In this document: positions 41,047 through 46,689 of the stretch, piece after piece
Position numbering within the stretch: the stretch's first letter is position 1
How the letters are laid out: each line of letters begins with the position of its first letter
The notes under the pieces: model-generated
Seen by the model: the letters and a program-made list of their open reading frames with translations, nothing else
What the model was told of the DNA's origin: nothing
Databases searched by the model: none
Made by a program: the position numbers and the translations under genes
From: a candidate division CPR2 bacterium GW2011_GWC2_39_10
GTDB lineage: Bacteria > Patescibacteriota > CPR2
Assembly (NCBI GenBank): GCA_000993275.1
Contig: LBVV01000002.1
Span: 23,194-70,764, forward strand
DNA length: 47,571 bases
Reading direction: 5' to 3'

Positions 41047-41304
41047 TTAGGTGCCAATCAAAACTGACAAAATCTCATGCAACACCTTTATTAAGAAGAA
41101 AAACACTAGAGGTGCAAAATCGACCCCACCGGTTACGGGTACAAATTTTCTTATTGGATTAAGCATGGGATCTGTTATCTGGACTACGAAATCACTTATT
41201 TTGCCTCTGGCATTTGGCAGCCATGACAAAATTGCCCTTATAAACATGATAACAATTAAGGTCGATACCAATACGTCTAAAAAATTGTGTAAAAATGGTT
41301 TCAT
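41047..41304 (-). CDS. YggT family membrane protein
   Basis: An 85-residue protein with two hydrophobic helices and the YggT pattern 'LVSTLIVIMFIRAILSWLPNARG...VVQITDPMLNPIRKFVPVTGGVDFAPLVFFFLI'. YggT proteins are integral membrane proteins of poorly known function, linked to cell division or osmotic homeostasis in several bacteria. Its ATG overlaps the preceding stop by 4 bases (ATGA). Confidence 0.88.
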   Translation of the reverse strand: MKPFLHNFLDVLVSTLIVIMFIRAILSWLPNARGKISDFVVQITDPMLNPIRKFVPVTGGVDFAPLVFFFLIKVLHEILSVLIGT

Positions 41305-41567
41305 ATAGTAAACAAGTAATACTTAACTTCTGACAATGGAGGAATCTCGCCCTTCCAGCCCTGAATAAAAAGACCTTCATTTGTTGTGACAACCACAGAG
41401 GGCGTAGAGTAAATATCGTATATTTCAGCCTTGGCAATGCCATCAACTTCTTCGGTATCAATGGATACAACATCGTAATTATCTCTTTGAAGGGTATTAT
41501 AAAAATCCTTCAAATAATTTTCCTCAATTACCGATATATCTTTTTTTGAAAATACAAGAACCTTCAT
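41301..41567 (-). CDS. thioredoxin-fold protein lacking the CxxC pair
   Basis: An 88-residue protein with a thioredoxin/glutaredoxin-like pattern: MKVLVFSK start, two early helices, 'YDVVSIDTEE', then 'YDIYSTPSVVVTTNEGLFIQGWKG' with the cis-Pro motif (TPSVVV). No Cys is present, so it cannot be a conventional thiol redox protein. It precedes yggT (ATGA overlap). Its own promoter has a perfect TATAAT placed so that transcription starts at the ATG. Function unknown. Confidence 0.75.
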   Translation of the reverse strand: MKVLVFSKKDISVIEENYLKDFYNTLQRDNYDVVSIDTEEVDGIAKAEIYDIYSTPSVVVTTNEGLFIQGWKGEIPPLSEVKYYLFTI

Positions 41568-41610: not shown

Positions 41611-42303
41611 CTAATAATGTCTTATTTCAGAGCTAGCGACATTCGTTAATATTATCGCTTTTAGCTTTTCCATTTCCTCCCCAGTAAAGCTTCTCTTTGA
41701 CATATATTTTTTATCCAAAGTAATGGTCTGCCTAAAGCTTTGCAAAAACATTTTTTTGGCTCCTTTTATCATTGCTCCAATTTCCTCAATATCTTTTTTA
41801 TTATGCAATTCCGGCAAGATCGTAGATCTGAACTCATAATCAACGCGTGAGTTCATAATTAAATCGATACTATCAATAATATTTTTGCTACTCCCTTTAA
41901 TATTTGTTGTTAAATCATACTTCGTTAAGCTATTTTTTATATCCATGGCCACATAATCCACCAGTTTCCGGCCTAATAATTGTTTTAGCTTTTGCGGATT
42001 AGAGCCGTTAGTGTCTAATTTCACCAAAAACCCCAGATTTTTTATTTGCATTATAAAATCTTGCAAGTCTTTTTGCAAAAGGGGTTCTCCTCCCGAGATG
42101 ACAACCCCCTCTAGAATATGTTTCCTTTTTTCGAGATATTTTAAAACATTCGCCCCGTCCTCTAAAATTATATTTCTAGAATCAATTAGATCCGGATTAT
42201 GGCAATAGCCACAACGAAAATTACAGCCCACAGTAAATATTGAGGCCGCAATTTTGCCCGGATAATCGATAAGCGTAGTCTTTTGAAATCCCCCTATTTT
42301 CAT
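41611..42303 (-). CDS. nrdG: anaerobic ribonucleotide reductase-activating radical SAM enzyme
   Basis: A 230-residue radical SAM protein. The CxxxCxxC cluster motif is 'CNFRCGYC' near residue 30, within 'TVGCNFRCGYCHNPDLID', and 'VVISGGEPLLQKDL' follows. By homology and by its place directly after nrdD and the glycyl-radical ORF it is the activase that makes the glycyl radical. ATG 42303 lies 2 bases after the small ORF stop; a TTG at 42312 is an alternative start with GAGG just upstream. Confidence 0.93.
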   Translation of the reverse strand: MKIGGFQKTTLIDYPGKIAASIFTVGCNFRCGYCHNPDLIDSRNIILEDGANVLKYLEKRKHILEGVVISGGEPLLQKDLQDFIMQIKNLGFLVKLDTNGSNPQKLKQLLGRKLVDYVAMDIKNSLTKYDLTTNIKGSSKNIIDSIDLIMNSRVDYEFRSTILPELHNKKDIEEIGAMIKGAKKMFLQSFRQTITLDKKYMSKRSFTGEEMEKLKAIILTNVASSEIRHY

Positions 42304-42305
42304 TT

Positions 42306-42473
42306 TTAACAAACTTCCTCATTCTTGAGGCTAAAGGTAAGCATCTTTCGATCGCCATATTCGGATTGTTTGCCCTTGTTCCATTGATGAACCGGCCTTA
42401 TGTAACCGACAACTCTGGAGAAAACCTCACATGGCTGCCTTAGCGCTTCGATTTTGTTAATTTCCTCTAACAT
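42306..42473 (-). CDS. separate glycyl-radical domain of class III ribonucleotide reductase
   Basis: A 55-codon ORF with AGGAGG and a 6-base spacer before the ATG, 11 bases after the nrdD stop. The protein contains EVFSRVVGYIRPVHQWNKGK (residues 16-35) followed by QSEYGDRK, which matches the C-terminal glycyl-radical loop of NrdD proteins; Gly23 in VVGY would carry the radical. The large NrdD upstream ends right after its zinc ribbon and lacks this segment. So the radical-bearing end appears to be a separate polypeptide, like a built-in version of the PFL rescue protein YfiD/GrcA. The next gene is the activase nrdG. Confidence 0.85.
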   Translation of the reverse strand: MLEEINKIEALRQPCEVFSRVVGYIRPVHQWNKGKQSEYGDRKMLTFSLKNEEVC

Positions 42474-42484
42474 AATACCCTCCT

Positions 42485-44599
42485 TTATACTTTTACTTCA
42501 CTTTTTGTATTTAGATTTAAATTTAATTGTTCCCTGTAGCCAATTTCTTCATCACACTTTGGACAAAATTTGTGTTCACCGGCCAAATAACCGTGTTTAG
42601 GACAAATGCTGAAGGTTGGAGTAAGAGTAAAATAAGGAAGTTTATAACTTTCAGCAATTTTTTTAACAAGCTTTTTATAAGACCCAAGATCATGAATTCT
42701 TTCGCCAAGATAATTGTGAAGAACCGTTCCTCCCGTATATCGTATCTGAAATTCGTCCTGCGCATCCAATAGATCAAATATATCACTGGTATATCCAACC
42801 GGATGCCATGAGGAGTTTGTGTAATATGGCTCGGCGCCGCTTCTGAAAGCCTCTTCATTGGCAACCCTAATTTCGGGATATTTTTTCTTATCGGCCCTGG
42901 CAAATCTGTATGTGGTTCCTTCGGCCGGGGTTGCCTCCAAATTATACAAATTCCCCGTTTCATGCTGAAAATCTAATATTCTTTTATTCATGTAGTCCAT
43001 GATTTCTATAGCGAATTTCCGCGCCTCCTTGTCTCCCAGGTCTTTATCCATGAAATTAAGCATGGCTTCGTTCATGCCGTGGATACCGATTGTGGAGAAA
43101 TGATTCTGCCAGTATTTGCCAAACCTTTTAGAGACGTTGTCTAAATAAACGCGGGCATAAGGATACAGTCCCTCGATAGTAAACTTTTCCACAGTTTTTC
43201 TTTTTAAAACCAAGCTCTCATGGGAAATGGTCATCAAATATTCGAGTCTACTGAAGAATTCTTTTTTTGTTTTAGACAAAAATCCGATTCGAGCTAAATT
43301 AATTGTAACAACGCCGATACTTCCGGTAAGTGGGTTGGCGCCGAATAGTCCACCGCCTCTTTTTCGAAGCTCTTTATTATCAATTCTAAGACGACAACAC
43401 ATGCTTCTGGCATCATCGGGACTCATATCGGAATTAACAAAGTTAGAGAAATAAGGGATACCATATTTAGCCGACATCTCCCAAACCGGATCTAAAACAG
43501 GATTATCCCAATTAAAATTCTTCGTTATATTGTAAGTTGGGATCGGAAAAGTGAAAACTCTCCCCTTAGAGTCACCAGCCATCATTACTTCGGCAAATGC
43601 TCGATTCAACAAGTCCATTTCTTCTTGGTAATCCTTGTATTTTTCTTTTTGCAGCTTGCCGCCAATTATTACATTTTCTTCACCCACCAGTTTTGTGGGG
43701 GCTAGATCCATTGTTATATTAGTAAACGGCGTCTGAAACCCAACCCTGGTTGGAACATTCATGTTAAATACGAATTCCTGGAGACATTGTTTAACTTCAT
43801 TGTAAGATAGCTTGTCATATCTGATAAAAGGAGCAAGATAAGTATCAAAATTAGAAAAAGCCACAGCGCCGGCGACCTCACCTTGTAAAGTATAGAAGAA
43901 ATTAACTATTTGGCCCAAAACAACACGAAAATGCTTTGCCGGACCACTCTCAATCTTTCCCCTGACACCCCCAAAACCTCTAAGTAAAAGGTCCTTTAGG
44001 TCCCATCCGGAGCAATAGGCAGCCAATATATATAAATCATGTATATGAATATCGCCCTCGATATGAGACTTCTTGATGTTGTTGGGATACATTTTTTCGA
44101 GCCAGTATTTGGCTGTTACCGAAGAACTAATGTAGTTATTAAGTCCCTGTAGAGAATAACTCATATTACTGTTTTCTTTAACTCTCCAGTCTGTTTCGTT
44201 TAAATAATCCTCCATTAATTCTCCAACGTCGAGCATTTTTCTGATTTCTCTTGCTTCTTCTCTTTTTCTGCGATAAATAATATAGGCCTTGGCAGTTTCT
44301 TCGAATACAGAGTCAATTAAAACATGTTCAACAATGTCTTGAATTTGCTCCACATTCGGAGAAATATTTTCAAATTTTCTATTAAGAATGGAGACAACTT
44401 TTAGGGAAAGTTTATGAGCTAACTTTTCGTTTAACTCACCCGTTGCGTTTCCGGCTTTTAATATGGCTTTGTCTATCTTTGAAATATTAAATTTTTCCAA
44501 ATCGCCATTTCTCTTTACAATGTGGGTGAATGTCTTTTTCTGTAAGCTCTTCTTATCCAGATGCAAAGGCTCCTGCAGCATTTTAGAACGGTCGCTCAA
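42485..44599 (-). CDS. nrdD: anaerobic (class III) ribonucleoside-triphosphate reductase, large part
   Basis: A 704-residue protein that reduces ribonucleoside triphosphates. An N-terminal ATP-cone (about residues 24-112, 'FTHIVKRNGDLEKFNISKIDKAI') gives allosteric control. The ten-stranded barrel shows 'GDIHIHDLYILAAYCSGWDL', the 'MCCRL' Cys pair (about 400-403) and 'RGGGLFGANPLTGSIGVVTIN'. The C-terminal zinc site CPKH...CPKC is present, but the protein ends about 25 residues later without a glycyl-radical loop; that is encoded by the next ORF. I chose the TTG at 44599 because AAGGAGG lies 5 bases upstream; an ATG at 44647 would overlap the previous gene by 32 bases. Confidence 0.94.
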   Translation of the reverse strand: MSDRSKMLQEPLHLDKKSLQKKTFTHIVKRNGDLEKFNISKIDKAILKAGNATGELNEKLAHKLSLKVVSILNRKFENISPNVEQIQDIVEHVLIDSVFEETAKAYIIYRRKREEAREIRKMLDVGELMEDYLNETDWRVKENSNMSYSLQGLNNYISSSVTAKYWLEKMYPNNIKKSHIEGDIHIHDLYILAAYCSGWDLKDLLLRGFGGVRGKIESGPAKHFRVVLGQIVNFFYTLQGEVAGAVAFSNFDTYLAPFIRYDKLSYNEVKQCLQEFVFNMNVPTRVGFQTPFTNITMDLAPTKLVGEENVIIGGKLQKEKYKDYQEEMDLLNRAFAEVMMAGDSKGRVFTFPIPTYNITKNFNWDNPVLDPVWEMSAKYGIPYFSNFVNSDMSPDDARSMCCRLRIDNKELRKRGGGLFGANPLTGSIGVVTINLARIGFLSKTKKEFFSRLEYLMTISHESLVLKRKTVEKFTIEGLYPYARVYLDNVSKRFGKYWQNHFSTIGIHGMNEAMLNFMDKDLGDKEARKFAIEIMDYMNKRILDFQHETGNLYNLEATPAEGTTYRFARADKKKYPEIRVANEEAFRSGAEPYYTNSSWHPVGYTSDIFDLLDAQDEFQIRYTGGTVLHNYLGERIHDLGSYKKLVKKIAESYKLPYFTLTPTFSICPKHGYLAGEHKFCPKCDEEIGYREQLNLNLNTKSEVKV

Positions 44600-44615
44600 T
44601 TTTTCCTCCTTTTTT

Positions 44616-46220
44616 TTATCCAAGTTGTATTTTCTTTTCTTTTTCATCTAAACTTTCTTTTTTTACTATTTCATACGCTTCCACAATCTTCAAAATGTTC
44701 CCGCTGCCGCACACACAGTCGCTACTAACAACATTTTGTCCCAGTATTTCTATTATTTCTTCCAGTAAGATGCCTCTCCGCAACATAATATTAATTAAAT
44801 TTATGATGATTGTTTCGCTCGAGGAAACTTTAGCTTTACTCAGCAACACCTCCATCGGCTGCAAATCGTTAGAATAATTTATAGTTATAAAAATATCATC
44901 GTCGCTTGACTTAAGTCGAACAGTTTTGCCGTTTAAAATTAACGGCCTTTCTTTTGACTTTAATACTTCGTCGGTTTCGTTCCTCTCGCCCCCATTGGTT
45001 CTAATGGAAACAGCAGTTGTCAACTCAAACTTTAGGATTTTAATTCCCAGCCCGGATGCGAGCCTAAAAATATTCAGCATTTCATCGTGGTTTGTTTCCG
45101 GAGATATTAAAATAGCTTTCGTACTAACGAGATCTGTATATTTTTGCGACTCTCCTTGCATCCTAACCTGCCATTCCGGAGAAGCTTCGTTTCCCGTTTC
45201 CTTAATACCGGTAGAAACATTAAAATATTTAGCAATCTCAAAATTCTCACTTAAACAGGTAAGACTTGCATTCCTTAAAGGCTTTGCATTGTCGAAAATG
45301 CCTTCATTAAATAGTGGAAAAACACCCCTTTCCTTGGCAAGCTCAGAACTGGCATTTTTAGCTTCTGTATCTACAAATTTAGAAACTTCCCCAAGCAATT
45401 TAATAGCTTCTTTAGACTCATAACTAATGCCCATTTTACCTATAGCATCGCTAAACCCGCAAATGCTAAGACCAATTTTCCTAGCTTTTTTGGTTTGTCC
45501 TTCAATTTCTAAAGTTGGGTACTCGTAAATATCAATTATGTTGTCTAAGAAACGCACGGCTATGTATATAGTATGTTTTAATTCGTCAAAGTTAATAACG
45601 CCTTCGTTTATAAAATTTGACAAGTTAATAAAGCCTTCGGCAACCTCTTCCCTTTCGGTAACCAATTGATTAGATGGCAAAATTTCAGAAAGCCTAAACT
45701 TTTTTCCCAAAGGATTAAATCTTTCAACCTCGTCTTTAAACACAAAACCTTTTATTTTATTTTCCTTAGCCTTGGTGAGTAGCTCCTTTGCTAAGTCTCC
45801 TGATTTCTTTTTTTGTTCCGTACCGTCGCCATTTTTCATCAAAATAGCGTCCTTCGATCCAAGCTTCTGAAGATATTCGTCACTGATTGATAAGTAGGAA
45901 TTCGGTAAAGTATTTACATGGATGTCCTCATTCATTAATTCCACTAACTGCATATTATCATCCTCGGCATCAATTCCAAGCTCCCGATCTAAAAACTTTT
46001 TTGAGGGAAGAAAATTTAACCTGTTTATGATATTTGCGAACTCTCGTTTTATATTATCCAAATTTAGCGTGGTATTATAAAACTTTTCTTGCTTTATGGC
46101 TTTTTCAATTAAAAAATTGATGGCGTTATCAATTGCAACCGCTTCTATTTCGCTATTATACAAACAATTAAGTTTAGAATTTGAAGTATCGCTTTCTACC
46201 TTTGCATCCTCATTATTCAT
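44616..46220 (-). CDS. degenerate class II ribonucleotide reductase (NrdJ)-like protein, probably inactive
   Basis: A 534-residue intact ORF. Residues about 150-300 align by eye with the NrdJ barrel: 'EVAEGFINLSNFI', 'AVRFLDNIIDIYEYP', 'KIGLSICGFSDAIGKMGISYES', 'SELAKERGVFPLF', 'RNASLTC'. Residues about 425-500 align with the C-terminal TSCPD-type domain: 'RPLILNGKTVRL', 'IFITIN', 'INIMLRRGILLEEIIEIL'. The catalytic NPCGE motif is replaced by LPSNQ, the loop APTGTIS is replaced by LSENFEIA, and several hundred barrel residues including the first redox Cys region are missing. The C-terminal CVCGSG remains. It lies between nrdR and nrdD, 13 bases after nrdR, with GGGGAG before ATG 46220. A regulatory or structural role is inferred. 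Confidence 0.75.
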   Translation of the reverse strand: MNNEDAKVESDTSNSKLNCLYNSEIEAVAIDNAINFLIEKAIKQEKFYNTTLNLDNIKREFANIINRLNFLPSKKFLDRELGIDAEDDNMQLVELMNEDIHVNTLPNSYLSISDEYLQKLGSKDAILMKNGDGTEQKKKSGDLAKELLTKAKENKIKGFVFKDEVERFNPLGKKFRLSEILPSNQLVTEREEVAEGFINLSNFINEGVINFDELKHTIYIAVRFLDNIIDIYEYPTLEIEGQTKKARKIGLSICGFSDAIGKMGISYESKEAIKLLGEVSKFVDTEAKNASSELAKERGVFPLFNEGIFDNAKPLRNASLTCLSENFEIAKYFNVSTGIKETGNEASPEWQVRMQGESQKYTDLVSTKAILISPETNHDEMLNIFRLASGLGIKILKFELTTAVSIRTNGGERNETDEVLKSKERPLILNGKTVRLKSSDDDIFITINYSNDLQPMEVLLSKAKVSSSETIIINLINIMLRRGILLEEIIEILGQNVVSSDCVCGSGNILKIVEAYEIVKKESLDEKEKKIQLG

Positions 46221-46233
46221 TTTCACTCCCCTC

Positions 46234-46689
46234 TTATCTTTCTTTTTTCATTTTTTTGATAATCTCATGAAAGCTATTTATATCGGTAAAAGATTGGTAA
46301 ACAGACGCAAAACGGATATAACTAACATCATCCAAGCTTGACAATTCCTTAAGAACTTGCTCCCCAATCTCCATCGATAAAATTTCATTTTCTCCTCTTG
46401 CTCGTATTTTTTTCTCAATCGAACCTACCACTTCCTCAATTTCCAATTCCGGAATCTCTCGTTTTTCGCATGCCCTGTATACTCCGTTAGCGATTTTGCT
46501 TCTGGAAAATTGCTCTCTTTTGCCATCTCTTTTTATAACCATAATCACCGGCTGCTCAATTCTCTCGTATGTAGTAAACCGTGTTTGACATTTAAGACAT
46601 TCTCTTCTTCGTCTAATTAATTCCCCATCATAAAGTTCCCTCGATTCCATTACTTTTGATTCAGATTTCTTGCACTCGGGGCACTTCAT
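46234..46689 (-). CDS. nrdR: transcriptional repressor NrdR
   Basis: A 151-residue regulator that senses ATP/dATP and represses ribonucleotide reductase genes. The N-terminal zinc ribbon MKCPECKKSESKV...CLKCQTRF and an ATP-cone (about 47-137) are intact. It is the first gene of the nrd operon, and two tandem NrdR boxes lie directly upstream, so it should autoregulate the locus. AGGAGC lies 6 bases before the ATG. Confidence 0.97.
   Translation of the reverse strand: MKCPECKKSESKVMESRELYDGELIRRRRECLKCQTRFTTYERIEQPVIMVIKRDGKREQFSRSKIANGVYRACEKREIPELEIEEVVGSIEKKIRARGENEILSMEIGEQVLKELSSLDDVSYIRFASVYQSFTDINSFHEIIKKMKKER

Follow-up and report, generated by a model that had tools for sequence, protein, structure and literature searches.

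The DNA analyzed here, referred to as the window, is a stretch of 47,571 nt from candidate division CPR2 bacterium GW2011_GWC2_39_10 (contig LBVV01000002.1); all coordinates are window positions. Its minus strand carries, in this order, nrdR, an NrdJ-like open reading frame (ORF), nrdD for the large chain of a class III ribonucleotide reductase, a 55-codon ORF, and nrdG (Table 1). The nrdD frame (42485-44647, minus strand) has 720 open codons and closes with TAA at 42485-42487, after the zinc ribbon and a 22-residue tail. The small ORF begins after a gap of 11 nt, in a different frame from nrdD, at an ATG with AGGAGG 5 nt ahead of it, and the ATG of nrdG (at 42303) lies 2 bases past its stop. 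Translation of nrdD probably starts at the TTG at 44599, behind AAGGAGG; the frame stays open to 44647, and this start is favored because in the sister species no open frame extends ahead of the position that matches residue 13.

Table 1. Features of the split reductase locus (window positions)
Feature	Coordinates	Strand	Evidence and remarks
nrdR	46234..46689	-	TIGR00244, E = 1.2e-53; order shared with relatives; first gene of the conserved cluster nrdR-(nrdJ-like)-nrdD-peptide-nrdG
nrdD, large chain	42485..44599	-	ATP-cone, 10-stranded barrel, and zinc ribbon, without glycyl loop; PF13597, AlphaFold match to NrdD structures
ATP-cone, residues 42-131	44255..44524	-	PF03477, E = 4e-22
MCCR finger-loop motif, residues 416-419, expected thiyl-radical site	43391..43402	-	Invariant in alignments of 49 and 58 NrdDs
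Zinc ribbon, C682-x2-H685-x9-C695-x2-C698 (CPKHx9CPKC)	42554..42604	-	Sequence; C/H columns invariant
DEEIGY, split-form signature right behind zinc ribbon	42536..42553	-	Motif count in split versus fused NrdDs
AGGAGG ribosome-binding site	42479..42484	-	Sequence; inside the 11-nt gap; Shine-Dalgarno-like sequence also precedes the peptide in relatives of the same class
55-aa glycyl-radical peptide ORF	42306..42473	-	PF13597, positions 531-561 of 562; alignment of 25 sequences
Gly23 codon, expected glycyl radical	42405..42407	-	Invariant in 25 of 25 split peptides
nrdG, NrdG2-type radical SAM activase	41611..42303	-	TIGR02495, E = 4.3e-61

The Pfam NRDD model (PF13597, 562 positions) matched the large ORF over positions 1-529 (E = 5.5e-180) and the small ORF over positions 531-561 (E = 6.6e-9); the model is thus divided exactly between the two, with no part missing or duplicated. 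When all Pfam models were searched, the small ORF matched this one only, and the Gly_radical model of the pyruvate formate-lyase (PFL) type gave no match. The 55-aa peptide carries the motif RxxCEVFSRVVGYIRPVxQWNKGKQ, and 12 residues are invariant in an alignment of 25 peptides, including Gly23 within R(V/I)(V/M)GY(I/L/H)RP. One copy each of the nrdD large ORF and the peptide ORF is present in the genome, and a search elsewhere in it for a second glycyl loop or a class I or class II reductase found none except the degenerate NrdJ-like neighbor. A preliminary description of the locus had proposed that the large ORF ends cleanly after the zinc ribbon, that the radical loop is an independent 55-codon ORF with a strong Shine-Dalgarno sequence, followed by nrdG, and that the 11-base gap contains AGGAGG and a new ATG; the stop, the ORFs, and the gap were all confirmed in the sequence, the partition of the Pfam model agrees with the independent ORF, and the TTG start that the description implied is probable given the limit of the sister-species frame.

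In alignments, the large chain retains its catalytic and metal-binding residues. The protein meets the criteria for a class III NrdD in having an NRDD barrel with the MCCR/Cys finger loop, a zinc ribbon, and an NrdG encoded nearby, and fails the criterion that the glycyl loop stand at the C terminus of the same chain; because the loop is on a separate ORF, we filed the window enzyme as a two-chain variant and not as an ordinary NrdD. The MCCR class of NrdD has been described (PMC9669993), and the zinc ribbon of T. maritima NrdD has the form CxxxHx6CxxC (PMC4493059). The ribbon of the window enzyme is complete within the large chain, its metal content being predicted from the ligands. A zinc site shared between the chains through the invariant peptide Cys15 was considered and dropped; the large chain holds a complete C3H ribbon, and the same Cys is usual in fused NrdDs too. 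Modeled alone with AlphaFold (mean pLDDT, 82.6), the large chain folds as an ordinary NrdD, its last 20 residues, behind the zinc ribbon, being disordered; the top PDB matches are class III reductases without exception (TM, 0.68 to 0.75 for the best match).

The NrdJ-like (class II) protein (44616-46226, minus strand) lies between nrdR and nrdD and was found only in the family of the window (G000, G001, and G002). Compared with T. maritima NrdJ, it is without the NPCGE active-site cysteine and glutamate and without the N-terminal part of the barrel domain; its dN/dS is about 0.1, and it is a conserved pseudoenzyme, perhaps with a regulatory role. Downstream of nrdG, an 88-aa protein (41301-41567, minus strand) is weakly thioredoxin-like (E = 0.098) and has no CxxC, and in genome G030 a redoxin with CPKC is encoded between the glycyl ORF and nrdG.

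Identity of the small ORF is 85% within the same genus and 74% within the same family, and a separate short ORF is present throughout the class of the window and far across the phylum. An NrdD-type glycyl loop was found in 78 genomes of a phylum sample of 380; by our own count of the open frames listed, the loop is a separate short ORF in about 43 of these 78 (about 22 families), with the split at one position in NrdD common to them, and the remainder have mostly a fused NrdD. Split NrdDs also occur in Dojkabacteria and in archaea (Thermoplasmatota, Micrarchaeota, and Nanoarchaeota). The preliminary description had named fused NrdDs in close relatives as a finding that would refute it and had proposed a search for the 55-residue ORF beside nrdD in other Patescibacteria; the sister species, the family, and the class proved to be split, and the search returned the families counted above. 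Between the window and the sister species, dN is 0.079 and dS is 1.16 for the peptide (dN/dS, about 0.07), with 20 of 29 differences in the peptide gene on third codon positions, and dN is 0.045 and dS is 1.19 for nrdD; on this comparison, the peptide is under purifying selection. Most split genomes checked had no PF02867 class I/II catalytic subunit (G003, 7, 8, 9, 13, 33, 37, 51, 68, 75, 83, 88, 97, 108, 122, 135, and 136), several of them at 97 to 100% estimated completeness, and the control search was positive in 11 of 14 known genomes. The window genome has the degenerate NrdJ-like protein as its only candidate on the PF02867 side. For most of the split genomes checked, which lack a reductase of class I or II, the split enzyme is apparently the sole one, so it must work.

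Directly behind the zinc ribbon, the sequence of split NrdDs is CPxC-D-x-(E/A)-x-G-(Y/F/I), whereas in fused NrdDs only a few residues separate CPxC from the CEVYSRVVGY loop. The signature CPxC-D-x-E-x-G-Y was present in 40 of 47 split NrdDs and in none of 63 fused ones; among the seven split sequences without it, L055 is masked there, and three others are of the zinc-ribbon type or the divergent G030 type. D699 was the only strongly split-specific alignment column. On a tree of 109 large chains, 8 switches between split and fused forms are required, versus about 35 in shuffles, and at least 4 of the 8 are forced by well-supported branches; one row (L126) was scored as split though fused, and the tree does not show which way single changes went. 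Because the motif is shared, the data suggest a single origin of the main split type, followed by fusions or transfers, as far as can be judged from sequence. A second split type (L113 and L197), in which the peptide carries a different zinc ribbon, and a third, formed by the divergent NrdD of G030 and L075, look independent, each a putative separate origin.

The locus fits the criterion for a split reductase, since two neighboring ORFs add up to one reductase and are conserved in relatives; they are also co-located with nrdG. We consider it very probable that they encode a functional two-chain class III ribonucleotide reductase, in which the large chain supplies the regulatory ATP-cone, the catalytic barrel (including the thiyl-radical cysteine), and the zinc ribbon and the peptide supplies the glycyl radical, although no biochemistry is available. 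Such a two-chain enzyme, already named in the preliminary description as one of two readings, is well supported by the conservation of the stop, the split relatives, and the variable gaps and frames between the ORFs (see below); the sequence evidence for it is strong, and biochemical evidence is lacking for the radical itself and for complex formation. As a proxy for the two chains, an in-frame archaeal split pair (L158) was artificially joined by reading its TAA as serine. Behind a weak linker, AlphaFold placed the loop at a pLDDT of about 90, and the complete model matched NrdD structures. Because the chain was artificially joined and the alignment was dominated by fused NrdDs, this model speaks for compatibility only: the peptide could occupy the known loop position, and association of a free peptide is not demonstrated.

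In single-chain NrdD, the glycyl radical domain has to exit the barrel to reach NrdG and go back afterwards (PMC12662201, PMC11226230, and PMC4493059). With the loop on its own chain, this domain movement becomes the association and dissociation of a peptide. We infer that the peptide would dock on the zinc ribbon, with its Gly23 tip entering the barrel beside the MCCR finger loop, like the covalent loop in solved NrdDs, that NrdG would install the radical on Gly23, and that the radical would then pass to the finger-loop cysteine of the barrel. Oxygen cleaves glycyl radical enzymes at glycine. As the radical site is where oxygen cuts, a separate peptide would be a cheap replaceable part, and we infer further, with less certainty, that it may be replaced without rebuilding the 80-kDa chain. 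Whether the peptide of the window is exchanged or is a permanent subunit is undecidable from these data, and its exchange would rest on analogy only.

That analogy comes from loop proteins that stand alone, among them extra ones in some Patescibacteria that have a fused NrdD. The complete fused nrdD of G281 (L111) and that of L187 each have directly behind them a second ORF (L111:3632-3916 and L187:5128-5445), which encodes a zinc ribbon of its own together with a glycyl loop. The same ORF type lies in G331 and L197 behind an NrdD that has lost its loop, and it is plausible that the two situations form an intermediate series. A fused NrdD and an unlinked 53-aa loop peptide occur together in G386. 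Desulfobacterota (L184, L152, L185, and G384 relatives) encode a zinc-ribbon/loop protein of 118 to 158 aa that is not linked to their complete NrdD; on one contig the two genes lie 2.9 Mb apart. Of 76 relatives of one carrier genome (carrier counted), 16 have this protein. On viral contigs (L214-L293), lone NrdD-type loop ORFs of 43 to 157 aa were found in 74 of the 80 best matches, a ranking that favors short close matches and is not a census. None of the 39 viral-contig records with a lone loop that were searched held other NrdD parts, though the records may be fragments. Neighbors of the lone loops in the viral contigs examined include endolysin and DNA-repair exonuclease genes, and PHROGs knows the viral loop ORFs only as NrdD ends. 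In G316, a glycyl peptide is fused to a glutaredoxin-like domain (L114:4964-5452), which may tie the radical part to an electron donor.

The stand-alone loop proteins look like NrdD counterparts of GrcA/YfiD, the spare part of PFL. The preliminary description had drawn this analogy for the window peptide, and it is borne out in kind by loop proteins that lie beside a complete NrdD and in viral contigs without one. We regard it as evenly balanced whether they belong to a widespread family of exchangeable radical cofactors that would serve as the sole radical source in split Patescibacteria and some archaea, as repair parts in Desulfobacterota, and as phage-carried parts sustaining host deoxynucleoside triphosphate synthesis after oxygen damage. 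The replaceable-part reading, but not the two-chain enzyme, is opposed by the possibility that the peptide is an obligate permanent subunit, produced a single time for each large chain without later exchange, the result of a neutral fission kept in small genomes. This possibility falls only a little short of even: peptide and large chain adjoin in the main split group, and the split NrdJab of Pseudomonas acts as a tight 1:1 complex (PMC4520616), whereas loop proteins stand alone beside complete NrdDs in Desulfobacterota, G281, L187, and G386 and in viral contigs without NrdD. For the wider family, these stand-alone proteins make exchange with a damaged NrdD at least plausible.

Other explanations bear on the two-chain enzyme itself. 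Loop peptides can stand alone in other genomes, and the window peptide could in principle be mainly a regulator, or a spare part for another glycyl radical enzyme, and not the radical subunit of this NrdD; we consider this very unlikely, as the window NrdD has no other glycyl loop, each ORF is present once, and the peptide matches the NRDD model and not the PFL-type one. Still less credible is recoding, in which a frameshift or stop readthrough would yield one fused chain. The phenomenon is known in general, and the large-chain stop is only 11 nt from the next ATG, but at the 25 junctions examined at single-base level the peptide start lies between -35 and +201 nt from the NrdD stop, each of the three frame offsets is represented, several stops intervene in some, and every peptide has its own start, with a strong Shine-Dalgarno sequence in the class of the window. 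No conserved slippery site was seen, and an Rfam scan of the region found no element. Given this variety of gaps and frames, no shared frameshift or readthrough signal can account for the split, and the earlier argument against a simple frameshift holds. An intein or intron at the junction was also considered and rejected: the window shows neither there, and the region has no Rfam match. Least likely of all is an assembly error, a doubt that the preliminary description had itself raised about the stop, or a decaying pseudogene: the sequence is probably metagenome assembled (34 contigs), but the same stop and split recur in independent assemblies, including the single-contig G083 and G136, dN/dS is 0.04 to 0.07 for both ORFs, and the signature motif is conserved.

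With the two-chain enzyme as the preferred reading, the window locus shares the barrel, zinc ribbon, RVxGYxRP-type glycyl loop, and partner NrdG with the class III NrdDs of T4, T. maritima, P. copri, and S. thermophilus; its ATP-cone is as in P. copri and S. thermophilus and its MCCR finger loop as in the T. maritima lineage. Unlike in known NrdDs, the loop is a separate polypeptide, and the zinc ribbon is followed by D-x-E-x-G-Y and not by the loop. The glycyl radical has been thought to be built into the NrdD chain. No earlier report of a split class III enzyme was found in the open-access full texts searched (subscription papers and preprints were outside the scope).

Like GrcA/YfiD and T4 Y06I (PMC8683613), the window peptide is a small separate protein that bears the C-terminal glycyl-radical segment of a glycyl radical enzyme. 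Unlike GrcA/YfiD, its loop is of the NrdD type, and it is the only radical source, with no intact parent enzyme beside it. The window NrdD therefore fails the GrcA criterion that the parent keep its own glycyl domain, which G281/L111, L187, and the Desulfobacterota pass; the loop proteins of Desulfobacterota and viral contigs are closer to the GrcA situation than the window peptide is. Only YfiD and Y06I are validated spare parts, and others may exist (PMC8683613). As in NrdJa-NrdJb of P. aeruginosa, a reductase is divided into a catalytic and a C-terminal chain within one operon; both NrdJ chains are required in vivo, and NrdJab has been called the only split ribonucleotide reductase in a non-viral organism (PMC4520616). 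Unlike the window enzyme, NrdJab is class II and B12 dependent, and its small chain, which carries no radical, serves to re-reduce the active site.

A detached radical carrier would allow the radical subunit alone to be activated, labeled, swapped, and titrated, so that radical installation, half-site reactivity, and allosteric control of radical transfer become directly testable. The locus bears, at least at the level of sequence, on the question raised in PMC8683613 of spare parts for other glycyl radical enzymes, and it exposes a class of tiny genes in viral contigs that annotation libraries at best call NrdD pieces.

Two further departures from the ordinary NrdD gene were seen. In L144, L156, and L169 (G380-G382), NrdD is cut inside the barrel, with an N-terminal part of about 580 aa and a C-terminal part of 154 to 170 aa on different contigs. 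NrdD frames of 1,342 and 1,557 aa occur in L072 (2651-6679, reverse strand) and L076 (1840-6513), respectively; these long frames probably contain inteins elsewhere in the gene, and one of them is a split NrdD.
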